Under the pieces are notes generated by a model. That model was not told the DNA's origin. It did no database searches and saw only the letters and a list, made by a program, of their open reading frames with translations. A stretch of 64,000 nucleotides of DNA. Origin: Streptomyces sp. NL15-2K (GTDB lineage Bacteria; Actinomycetota; Actinomycetes; Streptomycetales; Streptomycetaceae). The position numbers were made by a program, and so were the translations under genes. Location of the stretch: positions 2,151,501 to 2,215,500 of the forward strand of contig NZ_CP130630.1 in the NCBI RefSeq assembly GCF_030551255.1. Direction: 5' to 3'. Positions within the stretch are counted from its first letter, which is position 1. Each line of letters begins with the position of its first letter. Below are positions 15,721-20,324 of this stretch, in pieces.

Positions 15721-16137
15721 ATGCGAAAGCACATGATGCCGCTCGGAATCAGCCTCGCAATCGCGCTGACTTTGGGCGCATCCAGTGGAGCCGAAGCCGC
15801 GACGGCTCCTTCCGGCTTCATTAAGTGCAGCACTACCGGAGCGAGCGGAGATCTGGATTACAGCGGCTTTTCAGTCGGCACCACGAGGACGGTCGACATC
15901 GCCTTGGGGCTGTCTGACACCGGTCGAGACGGGCACCATGTTCGGATCAGACTCGTCACAGAATACTATTCGGGCGACAAGCACTACTGGCCGTGGCATG
16001 CCTTCTACGATGGGGTCGACGGAATAGGGAATACCTGGTACACAACGGCCACCGATTCGAACGGCATGTACGAAATCGGAGTTCAGGTCGCTACTTACGA
16101 AGGCAGCACCATGCTGTACAGCAAGACCTGCTGGTAA
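15721..16137 (+). CDS. Small secreted protein, uncharacterised
   Basis: A 138-aa protein with a Sec signal: a basic start 'MRKHMMPL', a hydrophobic core to about residue 20, and an AEA-A cleavage site near residue 27. The mature ~111 aa has only two cysteines, at about residue 37 and at residue 137 of 138, ideally placed for one disulfide joining the two ends. It is rich in Gly, Thr and Tyr/Trp with beta-type alternation ('TRTVDIALGLSDTGRDGHHV'). I do not recognise the family. Codon use is AT-richer than in neighbouring genes. The Shine-Dalgarno is weak (GGGAC). It is encoded against the surrounding minus-strand core genes, consistent with later acquisition. Confidence 0.8.
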   Translation: MRKHMMPLGISLAIALTLGASSGAEAATAPSGFIKCSTTGASGDLDYSGFSVGTTRTVDIALGLSDTGRDGHHVRIRLVTEYYSGDKHYWPWHAFYDGVDGIGNTWYTTATDSNGMYEIGVQVATYEGSTMLYSKTCW

Positions 16138-16208: not shown

Positions 16209-17927
16209 TCAGCTGCCGCCCGAGCTCTCATTGAACTTGTTCTTGAGCCTCTGGAATTCGGCATGCGTCTTGGCGAATTCGGTCTTGCTGACACCGTCGA
16301 CAGCCACGAAGTAGAACCAGCCGTCCTTGGTCGGATCGAGCGTCGCCTTCATGGCGACGTCGCCCGGGTTTCCGATCGGACCGGGCGGCAGACCCTTCTG
16401 TGTGTACGTGTTGTACGGGTCCTTGTTGTTGTTGATCTCCGACTCACTGATGTCGATGTTGCTCTCGTTCTTCAGGTAATTGAAGGTCGAGTCGAACTGC
16501 AGGAGCCCGTAGGTCTCGGGGTTCGCGATGTCGAGGCGGTTGTAGACCACCTCCGCCATCTTGCGGTAGTCCTCGCTGGTCTTGCCCTCGGCCTGGACGA
16601 GGCTCGCGACCGTGACGACCTGCAGCGGGCTCTTCAGCTTGAGCGCCTTGGCCTTGGCCTCCACGCCGAACGCGTCGTACTTCCGCGAGGCCTGGGCCAC
16701 CATCTCCTTCAGAACCGCCTCGGGCTTCATGCCCTTGGCGGCGGGATAGGTTCCCGGATAGAGGAAGCCCTCCAGCGGGTCCTTGATCTCGCTGTTGTCG
16801 TCCGCCCAACTCGGCAACCCGAGGCTCTTATATTTCTTCTCGGCGACCTTCTTGGTGCTGCCGGAAGGCAATTCGAGCTTCTCGTCAATGGTCTTGTAGA
16901 CGGCGATATTGCGCTCACCCTCCTTGACCAGCACATTGTTCTGACTCGTCGGGTCGAGCATCATCGCGACGGCACTCTCGGCGGACATCTGCTTCTTCAG
17001 CAGATAGGCGCCTGCCTGGATCTTGTTCCCGTCGGCATTCTGCGACTGCGCGGACACGAAGGCGTCGACGCTCTTGACGACGCCCGCCGCCTTCAGCCGC
17101 CGGCCGATGTCATATCCACCCGCACCCTTGGGGATCTCGACGGTCACGATCTGGCTCGTGCCTTCGCCGGCGAAGTCCGGAGCCGGGGCGAAACGATCCT
17201 GGTAGTACTGGTAGCCGAGATATCCGACTCCACCCACTCCGCCACCGATCACCAGCATGACGACCAGACAGGCGCATCCGCTGCGGCGCTTCTTCTCTTT
17301 GCCGCCACGGCCTCGCCGGTCGCCGCGCCCGCCCTGGTCCCCCGCCTCGTCGTCGCTGTCGTCGTCATCGCCGCCGCCCGCGAAGAAGGCGTGTTCGCCC
17401 TGGTCAGGGCCCGGGTCCCAGTCGGTCCGCGGCTCCGGTTCGGCGCGCCGCCGACTGGGCGGCTCCGGCGGCGGATACGCGTCCGGGGTGCCGTAGTGGT
17501 CAGGCTGCTGCCCGCCGTACGCCATGCCCTGCTGCCCGTACGGGTCCGAGGGGTCGGCGTACTGGACATGCGAGTGCGTGCCGGTGGCCCAGTCACCGTT
17601 GTCGTACTGCTGCTGCGGCTGGGCCCCGTACTGCTGCTGGTCGTACTGCTGGTCGTACTGCTGGTTGTACTGCTGCTGGTTGTACTGCTGCTCGCCGTAC
17701 TGCTGCTGGTGCTGCTGCTGGTAGTGCTGCTGCGCCTGACCGTATGCGGCCTGCTGGCCGTTGCCCCAGTCGCCGTACTGCGGCTGCTCCCGATAGTGCT
17801 GCGGCTGGCCGCCGTAGGGGGACTGCTGACCCTCCTGGGCCTGCTGTCCGCCCCATCCGCCGTCCCCGTACAACGGGTCCTCCGGATGCCACGGTTCGGA
17901 GCCTTCGCCCCGGCCATAGTCAGTCAT
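16209..17927 (-). CDS. mltG: Endolytic peptidoglycan transglycosylase MltG (YceG-like)
   Basis: Membrane-bound lytic enzyme thought to cut nascent glycan strands and set their length. From the ATG at 17925-17927 the protein has 572 aa. It comprises a ~190-residue cytoplasmic region rich in Gln/Tyr/Gly (residues ~25-110 almost only Q, Y, G, N, D), an acidic/Lys-Arg patch, one transmembrane helix ('CLVVMLVIGGGVGGVGYLGY'), a LysM-like segment and the YceG domain, with the catalytic Glu in 'ASLVQAEGKTSEDYRKMAE' and 'VVYNRLDIANPETYGLLQFD'. A GTG at 17940-17942 would add five residues; neither start has a clear Shine-Dalgarno. Its 5' end overlaps iscB by 8 bp, so its native upstream DNA seems displaced. 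Confidence 0.92.
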   Translation of the reverse strand: MTDYGRGEGSEPWHPEDPLYGDGGWGGQQAQEGQQSPYGGQPQHYREQPQYGDWGNGQQAAYGQAQQHYQQQHQQQYGEQQYNQQQYNQQYDQQYDQQQYGAQPQQQYDNGDWATGTHSHVQYADPSDPYGQQGMAYGGQQPDHYGTPDAYPPPEPPSRRRAEPEPRTDWDPGPDQGEHAFFAGGGDDDDSDDEAGDQGGRGDRRGRGGKEKKRRSGCACLVVMLVIGGGVGGVGYLGYQYYQDRFAPAPDFAGEGTSQIVTVEIPKGAGGYDIGRRLKAAGVVKSVDAFVSAQSQNADGNKIQAGAYLLKKQMSAESAVAMMLDPTSQNNVLVKEGERNIAVYKTIDEKLELPSGSTKKVAEKKYKSLGLPSWADDNSEIKDPLEGFLYPGTYPAAKGMKPEAVLKEMVAQASRKYDAFGVEAKAKALKLKSPLQVVTVASLVQAEGKTSEDYRKMAEVVYNRLDIANPETYGLLQFDSTFNYLKNESNIDISESEINNNKDPYNTYTQKGLPPGPIGNPGDVAMKATLDPTKDGWFYFVAVDGVSKTEFAKTHAEFQRLKNKFNESSGGS

Positions 17928-19644
17928 CAGAGCGGTCGACACGCATGCCTACGCCGTCGGCGCATCGATGCGCGTCTTCCTCCTCTCGGGTGATATAGCC
18001 GTAGCCGTCGGCCCGTTGAAGCAAATGGATATAGCGCTGATGGATGCCTTGGGCAGTACCTCGGCTGGATCGGATATTGAAACGCCCAGTTGAACGCACA
18101 GCAACCCGGCCCGTCCAGGAACCCGCATACTTTCCGGAAGGGATGACTGCCCGGACGAGGTCACCTGTGGCATAGCCAAAGCACTGCTTGGTACGGGGCA
18201 GGCTCAGGCGCGGGAAGCCGTGCCGATCTGAGCGAGTGCGAGCGTACGTCCCACGACCCGCCGCAGTCGCGACCAGCACCCTCTCGGGGAACCGCACGAT
18301 TCTCGTGCCGCCCTTTACCGCACCGACGGCCAACGCATACAGCGTGTGCGTCTTTGCCAGGCCATGGCTCACACGGTTGTATTGTGTGCGCCCGCCAGAC
18401 CAGCTGTAGACGGGCAGATGTGTTGAACGCAGTTGATCGACAATGCGCCATCGCGTTGCATTCATGACAGCCGCGTCCCTCAATGGGGTCTTAATCTGCG
18501 CCAAAATCCTTTTCAGTGCAGCAGGACGATGGCTCAGAAACTCAGTCACCGATTGCTTACCTTTTGCCGCATCACAAGGCGCACACGCAAGTGTCAGATT
18601 AGAGAGGCGGTCGGAGCCACCATAAGCCCTAGGCTGGACATGTTCTACCTGTAGTGGGACGTCGCCGATTCCACAGTACGCACATTTCCTGCCCCATTTT
18701 TCAAGCAGATATTGACGGGCTTCGTATCCGGCCAGAGTTCCCTGCTGGTACTCACTAGCCTCAAGCCAACCTCTGCCCTGGCTCATGGCATGCGTATCGA
18801 ACGAGACCCGCTCGACGTGAAGCTCCGAGACAGGGACGTATCGGATCAGTTGCCGAACGGTGGATCCGGTTGTGTCGACTCGATGTTGCACCGAGGGGCC
18901 CAACCACCCAGCCGATCTACTGCGATTGTCGAATCGCGGGGCACGATAGCGGAGATTCCTCGACCTCCTTGCACGTCTATACGCAGCTCGCTGCGACATC
19001 GCCTTGTGGATTTGCGCCCCCCGATATCGTAGTTCGATCGCCACCAGCCCTCGCCGTGTGGTGAAGCCTGCACCATCCTCACCGCTTGTCGCGTGAACAT
19101 CGACAGTGACCGCGATACCGGTGCCTTTCGAGCCGGGATCGATTCGCACTGCGACACCAGGTACAGCCGACTCCTTCACTTCTCGGTCCTTGAGCCTGAT
19201 GACGAAGGGCGTGTGCCGAGCCACTACTGCCCTACCCTTCGCCAGGAGTTCACGAGCACGTGCAGGATGGCAAGGCATCAGTGGGACACCCCGCCGGTCC
19301 AACACGGCCACGAAGGCCGCACCCGAACCAACATTCTGCATGGCGCTGCCGTTATCGGCAGCGTTTTCTCCCTCAGCCGACGCTGACGCGACAGCCTCGG
19401 AGTGACGTGCGAGAGCCCGGAGGTCAGACTCGCGCATCTCCCCTCGCCCATGTTCCAAGCCAGCTGCCCCACCCTTGCGCGTGGAGCGTCCATCGCCCGT
19501 TTCGTCCCTGCTCCCAGGGGTGTCTGCTGCGGCGGATTCCAGAGCAGGCCGCTGAGGAAGCACGGCCTGGTGGGTCTTCTCACTCACCTGAAACGTAGTC
19601 ACCGATACACCTCCTCCACGCGGTGACTCGGGCTGGTCACTCAT
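17920..19644 (-). CDS. iscB: IscB-type RNA-guided nuclease with altered RuvC-III motif
   Basis: Relative of the Cas9 ancestor, encoded by IS200/IS605-like elements and guided by an omega RNA. The 574-aa protein has, after a ~110-residue unconserved N-terminus, a PLMP motif at 121-124 and RuvC-I 'RIDPGSKGTG' (D169). The Arg-rich bridge helix follows at 215-240, RuvC-II at 'LHVERVSFD' (E278), and the HNH domain at 321-372 with C321/C324, H335, N349 and C354/C357. In RuvC-III, 'KTHTLYALAVG', the Asp expected three residues after H433 is Tyr436 (codon TAT, 18337-18339). HNH looks complete, so this may be a natural nickase or an inactive copy. No TnpA is encoded. GC is lower than in neighbours, and the C-terminus runs into mltG. 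Confidence 0.93.
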   Translation of the reverse strand: MSDQPESPRGGGVSVTTFQVSEKTHQAVLPQRPALESAAADTPGSRDETGDGRSTRKGGAAGLEHGRGEMRESDLRALARHSEAVASASAEGENAADNGSAMQNVGSGAAFVAVLDRRGVPLMPCHPARARELLAKGRAVVARHTPFVIRLKDREVKESAVPGVAVRIDPGSKGTGIAVTVDVHATSGEDGAGFTTRRGLVAIELRYRGAQIHKAMSQRAAYRRARRSRNLRYRAPRFDNRSRSAGWLGPSVQHRVDTTGSTVRQLIRYVPVSELHVERVSFDTHAMSQGRGWLEASEYQQGTLAGYEARQYLLEKWGRKCAYCGIGDVPLQVEHVQPRAYGGSDRLSNLTLACAPCDAAKGKQSVTEFLSHRPAALKRILAQIKTPLRDAAVMNATRWRIVDQLRSTHLPVYSWSGGRTQYNRVSHGLAKTHTLYALAVGAVKGGTRIVRFPERVLVATAAGRGTYARTRSDRHGFPRLSLPRTKQCFGYATGDLVRAVIPSGKYAGSWTGRVAVRSTGRFNIRSSRGTAQGIHQRYIHLLQRADGYGYITREEEDAHRCADGVGMRVDRSDD

Positions 19645-19800
19645 GGGCCCTATCCGCCCACGGCGGACAAGCCCCAGCCCTCAAAGCTGGGGAGCGAGTG
19701 ACCGATCCCCTAGAGCCGCGAGACAGTCCGCCTCTGAGCATCAAACCCAGAAGCCACTTGCCTCCTTGGTGTGCGACGGCTGTTCGAACACCGCCGCATC
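19635..19800 (-). ncRNA. Candidate omega RNA of the IscB locus
   Basis: The 180-bp gap between the ruvX stop and the iscB start is highly structured on the iscB-sense strand. Hairpin A is CCCCAGC/GCTGGGG (19686-19692 with 19672-19678). Hairpin B is TCCGCC/GGCGGA (19662-19667 with 19653-19658). A long-range 8-bp helix GGTCACTC/GAGTGACC (19696-19703 with 19635-19642) encloses both and reaches to the first codons of iscB. A palindrome TGTTCGAACA lies at 19781-19790. In known IscB loci the omega RNA precedes the gene and its 5' guide comes from DNA outside the element, here next to the ruvX 3' end. The exact ends cannot be read from sequence. Confidence 0.6.
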
Positions 19801-19824
19801 GCGCGGAACGTTACCGTATCGCGA

Positions 19825-20289
19825 TCAGATGACCACTTCGACGCGTTCGCCGGGTGCTTTACCTGACACCCGTTCGGATTCCAGGGCCTGCTGCAAGATG
19901 ATCACGGCCGCTGCCTGGTCGATGACCGATCTGCCCTTCTTGGCCTTCACCCCTGAGGCGCGCAGTCCCTGACTGGCCGTCACGGTCGTCATCCGCTCGT
20001 CGACGAGCCGGACCGGGAGGGGCGCGATGCCCTTCGCGAGCTCCTGGGCGAAGCCACGAACTTTTACCGCGGCCGGGCCCTCGCCGCCCTTGAGGGAGCG
20101 AGGGAGACCGACGACGACCTCGATCGGCTCGTACTCCTCGACCAGTTGCCTCAGCCGTCGGTGCGCCGCGGGGACGTCCCGGCCGGGGACCGTCTCCACC
20201 GGGGTGGCGAGGATCCCGTCGGGGTCGCACGAGGCGACCCCGATCCGGGCGTCACCGACATCGATCGCAAGCCGTCGGCCGCGGCGCAT
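19825..20289 (-). CDS. ruvX: RuvX/YqgF-family Holliday junction resolvase-like nuclease
   Basis: RNase H-fold protein needed for pre-16S rRNA 5' end processing in E. coli and proposed as a Holliday junction resolvase. The 154-aa protein has the first catalytic Asp in 'RLAIDVGDARIGVA', 'VVVGLPRSLKGGEGPAA' in the centre, 'VRLVDERMTTVTA' and a last Asp in 'GRSVIDQAAAVIIL'. The ATG at 20287-20289 is used; an in-frame GTG at 20326-20328 overlaps the alaS stop (GTGA) and would add 13 residues. It would normally be followed directly by mltG; here the IscB element intervenes. Confidence 0.93.
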   Translation of the reverse strand: MRRGRRLAIDVGDARIGVASCDPDGILATPVETVPGRDVPAAHRRLRQLVEEYEPIEVVVGLPRSLKGGEGPAAVKVRGFAQELAKGIAPLPVRLVDERMTTVTASQGLRASGVKAKKGRSVIDQAAAVIILQQALESERVSGKAPGERVEVVI

Positions 20290-20324
20290 CACCGGGCCGT
20301 CGTCACGCGCCTGTCCGGCTGCGC

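Follow-up and report, generated by a model that had tools for sequence, protein, structure and literature searches.

IscB proteins are kin of the ancestors of Cas9. The HEARO elements that carry them reportedly prefer ATGA or GTGA sites, as Weinberg is said to have described in 2009, and a target-adjacent motif (TAM) of this type is therefore not in itself to be counted as new. Homing endonuclease elements offer a second frame of comparison: one lineage occupies each conserved site, the hosts are patchily distributed, and the empty allele is the only good target. Stand-alone IscB copies are not exceptional: PMC9755519 states that only a few HEARO nucleases adjoin TnpA. PMC13418256 describes TldR, the nuclease-dead TnpB regulators in which catalytic residues are lost and the RNA is kept. 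A literature search of limited scope gave no recognisable paper on where IscBs insert in Streptomyces or on IscB homing.

The locus described here lies in a 64,000-nucleotide stretch of the Streptomyces sp. NL15-2K chromosome, hereafter the window. It resembles the IscB/HEARO system (NF040563; RF02033) in its protein family, in the omega RNA upstream of the gene, in a guide drawn from the flank and in standing alone, and differs from it in two changed catalytic residues, in its position between a Shine-Dalgarno sequence (SD) and a start codon, and in a frame that overlaps the host gene. By analogy it would also resemble homing endonuclease elements, with a lineage tied to its site, patchy hosts and a sole good target; here, however, an RNA guide would select the target, the host gene is not restored by an intron or intein, and any conversion would be hypothetical. 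The likeness to TldR is confined to lost catalytic residues and a retained RNA, as the window copy belongs to the IscB lineage and has no genomic target beyond chance.

The open reading frame at 17920-19644 (minus strand) matches the NCBIfam model NF040563, "RNA-guided endonuclease IscB", with 394 bits (cut-off 175), as well as Pfam RRXRR (207 bits) and HNH (35 bits); by descent it is an IscB, with the RuvC, bridge-helix and HNH regions of the family model, and the solved structures nearest to it by sequence include TbaIscB, HfmIscB and OgeuIscB. Family profile matches identify its neighbours as RuvX and MltG. The features of the locus are the following:

16209..17927, minus strand: mltG, the host gene, its SD separated from its own ATG
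17920..17927, minus strand: ATGACTGA, 8 nt shared by the start of mltG and the stop of iscB, an overlap retained in all three filled species
17922..17927, minus strand: TAM-side flank ATGACT, the start of mltG, from comparison with empty sites
17928..19702, minus strand: the whole IscB/HEARO element, 1,775 bp, without target-site duplication, from filled versus empty sites
17920..19311, minus strand: iscB, the part that probably codes for protein (463 aa from a putative GTG start codon)
18337..18339, minus strand: Tyr436 codon at the RuvC-III Asp position (Asp in 99 of 101 aligned IscBs, one gap)
18571..18573, minus strand: Asp358 codon at the third HNH residue (Asn in 100 of 101 aligned IscBs)
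19432..19702, minus strand: omega RNA (HEARO, RF02033), its 5' end being the left end of the element, from cmscan and covariation
19703..19718, minus strand: predicted 16-nt guide CGGCTCTAGGGGATCG beside the omega RNA, in the former mltG leader and including its SD
19825..20316, minus strand: ruvX, the left neighbour, intact and outside the predicted guide

Comparison of filled and empty loci places the insertion exactly between the mltG SD and the ATG. The leader runs into the omega RNA in the window, in S. muensis (L042) and in S. himalayensis (L043), and the DNA picks up again at ATGACTGA after 1,775, 1,775 and 1,772 bp, respectively. The element consists of the omega RNA and iscB and nothing else; TnpA is absent from the 1,775 bp, which sets it apart from the IS200/IS605 type, where TnpA lies within the element. 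Elsewhere in the genome there is one Y1 TnpA, beside an open reading frame read by eye as tnpB. The genome also holds one other full-length IscB (57% identity), two that are broken and a weak match confined to HNH. The first-pass annotation had recognised an IscB with a structured leader and no adjoining transposase between ruvX and mltG, all of which stands. The alignment of ruvX-mltG DNA from relatives that it proposed gave the exact ends, so that its extent of 17920-19830 gives way to 17928-19702, and the genome search for TnpA that it also proposed led to the single Y1 TnpA away from the element. It had overlooked the two catalytic substitutions, the separation of SD and ATG, the overlap of iscB with mltG and the further IscB copies in the genome. 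Its remark on lower GC is correct for the element (0.612) against ruvX (0.699) and alaS (0.694) but fails against the catalytic part of mltG (0.610), and because that part is equally low, GC alone is no marker of insertion. A functional link to cell wall or DNA repair, the neighbourhood that it named, is unsupported: guide and NTGA-type TAM explain the choice of site. The catalytic part of MltG (16209-17162) has, besides its low GC of 0.610, identities of 81% to 57% among the matches listed, unlike ruvX. Beyond mltG, between it and aroE (the latter read by eye), lies an extra 138-aa open reading frame on the plus strand (15721-16137, GC 0.576).

The omega RNA, directly upstream of the gene, scores 63 bits against RF02033 in cmscan (E 1.1e-11), under the Rfam gathering score of 83. 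A consensus fold of 19 Streptomyces omega RNAs including that of the window (19 of the 22 available, L020, L023 and L028 being left out), predicted on the same alignment that was used for covariation, has 56 pairs, 29 of them with at least one both-sides change that keeps the pair. By this comparative evidence the window omega RNA is still constrained. The flank that adjoins it is the leader of the empty mltG site; the predicted guide, for which we assume a length of 16 nt, has the same sequence in all three filled species and in the majority of the empty sites. The annotation was partly right in placing the guide on the ruvX-side flank, although it lies outside ruvX: a guide inside that gene was rejected, as the gene stops at 19825 whereas the omega RNA begins only at 19702, and the predicted guide is the former leader of mltG itself. 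On the other side, the flank ATGACT is NTGA-type, with the mltG ATG serving as predicted TAM, and the empty site carries both guide and TAM. ATGACT agrees, except at its last position, with the NWRRNA motif given for OgeuIscB in PMC11900391. Just left of the ruvX stop at 19825, TGATCGCGATACGGTAACGT shows strong conservation across Streptomyces sites, whether filled or empty.

In all 48 other Streptomyces ruvX-mltG loci examined an uninterrupted leader stands directly before ATGAC(T/C)GA, and 36 of them read exactly GGCTCTAGGGGATCG joined to ATGACTGA. The gene is accordingly not ancestral at the site in the relatives examined; an ancestral gene there in all relatives is what the annotation had named as refuting its claim. 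These loci comprise 16 same-genus matches besides the window (L123-L138) and 32 chosen from a genus match list, which are not a random draw (13 from genomes whose leader-ORF site holds an IscB, 19 from genomes in which no IscB was matched); a further 12 same-order loci (L139-L150), where the ruvX-mltG arrangement differs, stand outside the count. Of 295 Streptomyces genomes, 32 have an IscB match. A search of 392 genomes for the filled left junction returned two exact cases, the window genome and G220, taken as S. muensis because its hits are identical, as well as 13 with one mismatch, and at the ten of the latter that were read (L151-L158, G389 and G109) IscB, ruvX and mltG are absent nearby. 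The S. himalayensis copy came from a scan that kept the best 80 of 163 loci, which brings to three the species filled at the mltG site.

The IscBs of these three species form one clade at 100/99 (tree of translations longer than 330 aa, which does not include L003, L013, L039 and L044). Their hosts do not: in a 19-row alaS-ruvX tree the filled species are ungrouped and supported branches force three changes, and in a 51-row tree they again stand apart with three changes, a count that compares them only with the other labelled group (14 rows) and leaves 34 of the 51 rows aside. One lineage at one site in patchy hosts is what a homing element would leave behind, and it is also expected from repeated precise loss. 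A joint arrival of IscB with an mltG allele was rejected: the catalytic parts of MltG in the window and S. muensis are 59% identical, within the span of 81%-57% among the genus matches listed.

From this anatomy we infer homing, coupling to the host gene and loss of cutting. We regard the element as a stand-alone, site-locked and homing-like IscB, of which the window copy is probably nuclease-impaired and kept partly through its coupling to mltG, a reading to which we give a probability of about 0.5. In cells whose site was empty, an active ancestor would have recognised GGCTCTAGGGGATCG-ATGACT, and it would have spread to empty alleles by a guide-directed cut and repair copied from the filled allele; alternatively, TnpA acting in trans may have helped, or the element may have restored itself after excision. 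Insertion would remove the SD from mltG, and copies would survive where the right end restores expression, at mltG by way of an iscB frame that ends on the mltG ATG. The window copy may later have lost its catalytic residues while its frame continued to matter to mltG.

The main competitor, which we consider rather unlikely, is a single ancient insertion at the mltG site that was inherited vertically and precisely excised many times, with no homing at all. Repeated precise loss explains the host tree as well, and the IscB branching, with the window and S. muensis together and S. himalayensis outside, agrees with that tree for these three species; a Y1 TnpA is at hand in the genome. The empty sites can be read both ways, for their unscarred state fits precise excision, yet no scar or element remnant was seen at any of the 48. 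Against excision, about six losses would be needed versus three gains on our own reading of the 19-row tree. Synonymous divergence to S. himalayensis is 2.06 for iscB, higher than for ruvX (0.78), aroE (0.58) and alaS (0.21); this favours separate arrivals, subject to the weaker codon bias of iscB, which may have inflated its value.

With the insertion mltG has lost its SD. Across the 48 empty sites, predicted SD pairing before the mltG ATG lies between -9.0 and -5.8 kcal/mol with an average of -8.7; the three filled sites give -3.8, -3.8 and -5.6 kcal/mol, and the median for 2,000 random 20-mers of the window is -5.2 kcal/mol. In all three filled species the iscB frame is open to a TGA that overlaps the mltG ATG. 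The natural reading is that mltG in these species, deprived of its SD, is translated by coupling to iscB, and that the iscB frame would be kept open partly for this reason. Two points count against the preferred explanation here: an in-frame GTG at 17942 may be another start for mltG, and the S. himalayensis value of -5.6 kcal/mol is about that of random DNA.

The iscB frame itself is open from 19644 (574 aa), and the first part of this long frame passes through the omega RNA. Among the three same-site copies dS in the overlapping part is low and dN/dS is 0.4-1, compared with 0.09-0.14 in the core, and constraint there therefore looks like RNA constraint. A protein with the long N-terminus is disfavoured by the same values and by stops in this part in some relatives, and the window protein more likely starts near the GTG at 19311. 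The rest of it is still constrained and not decaying, to judge from a core dN/dS of 0.136 between the window and S. muensis and from polarised changes on these two branches of 30 versus 24 (amino-acid) and 44 versus 35 (synonymous).

Against this background the catalytic positions of the window copy stand out. It is the only one of 101 aligned IscBs with Tyr at the RuvC-III Asp and Asp at the HNH Asn: the RuvC set (Asp, Glu, His, Asp) is incomplete, with Tyr436 in the place of the RuvC-III Asp and the other three kept, and in the HNH set (His, Asn, Asn/His) His335 and Asn349 are kept and the third residue is Asp358. Of 97 near-invariant columns the window departs from four and S. himalayensis from two, whereas S. 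muensis keeps them all (analysis without L003, L004, L007 and proteins under 400 aa; L013, from the genome of L042, was not a reference). At least four changes occur in 19 of 102 rows, and therefore it is the positions that are unusual in the window and not their number. The RuvC domain is probably dead, the HNH domain with Asp358 may still nick, and together the two substitutions probably leave this copy nuclease-impaired. That the protein is instead an ordinary, still active IscB, both substitutions being tolerated or sequencing errors, would agree with the conservation of omega RNA, guide and most of the protein; we find it improbable, since both changes fall at catalytic positions that do not otherwise vary in the aligned set, and sequencing is unlikely to have erred twice, independently, at precisely these sites.

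The predicted guide was also compared with the genome. Fourteen of its bases plus NTGR, with up to three mismatches, gave 56 matches versus 63 for the reversed control; a single match is better than these, and it is the left end of the element itself, which lacks the TAM. A second genomic target is thus ruled out at this chance level of matches, and the empty mltG leader is therefore the only good target, an outcome that favours homing or retention over regulation or defence. A nuclease-dead IscB serving as an RNA-guided regulator or in defence, as TldR does among TnpBs, would fit two changed active sites beside a conserved guide, RNA and protein, but is very improbable given this target search.

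The preferred, homing-like reading may extend to other Streptomyces IscBs. Two further IscB clades (each 100/100), one with three members and one with 17, are each tied to another translation-initiation site. The joined flanks of L030, L045 and L015 have matches in 57, 46 and 58 of 61 genomes, one-side matches included. At the L030 and L015 sites the sequence continues without interruption into an ATGA start codon in 12 of 12 loci read per site; at the L045 site the apparent junction falls between GAG and GTG(A/G)T inside an SD in all 12 loci read (among them L186 and L196 from filled genomes, and L190 with an apparent IscB remnant), and filled loci there have a native-looking promoter on the right side of the element. 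Predicted SD pairing of the right end before the host ATG is strong at the L015-type site (-11.2 to -11.6), in L002 (-15.8) and in L014 (-10.8), moderate in L027 (-8.7) and L030 (-8.3), and weak in four of 11 right ends (L026, L029, L034 and L035; -4.6 to -6.5 kcal/mol); on the left side, SD pairing is absent from L026, L029 and L035. Placement by eye at an ATG applies to the right ends of L002, L014, L016, L026, L027, L029, L034, L035 and L046, but not to those of L030 and L015. It is tempting, if still tentative, to propose that the transposase-less IscB families of Streptomyces are RNA-guided homing elements at translation-initiation sites, with one guide per lineage, a start codon or the GTGA of an SD as TAM, and a right end that repairs host expression. 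Repair would take the form of a new SD, of a promoter plus SD or, at mltG, of coupling of host translation to iscB, which would keep the iscB frame alive even after loss of cutting.

Several further observations concern these and more distant IscBs. The 17-member leader-ORF-site clade (L017-L025, L028, L031, L033, L036, L037, L040, L041 and L045) is flanked on both sides by promoter-plus-SD-like DNA, the left resembling the right only around the SD. At the same site L190, from a genome in which no IscB was matched (G017), carries some 230 bp that resemble the 3' end of iscB and look like a decayed remnant, and in the window genome a broken IscB adjoins the corresponding leader-ORF site (C1:5160216-5161347). 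Five IscB matches occur in one genome (G257). Outside Streptomyces, L052, L060, L062 and L068, a clade of three Acidithiobacillus IscBs and one from a proteobacterial MAG, have RuvC-II Glu replaced by Met in all four and RuvC-I Asp lost in three; their HNH residues are kept and their HEARO RNAs score 81.5-95.2 bits, which makes them candidates for natural HNH-only nickases.

IscBs without an adjoining transposase are common, according to PMC9755519, and the mltG case bears on how they persist and spread. Because sequence alone reveals the guide, the TAM, the empty allele and how the hosts are related, RNA-guided homing and repeated excision become directly testable against each other. The locus also suggests a route by which an element may become hard to delete, namely the takeover of the translation start of a conserved gene.
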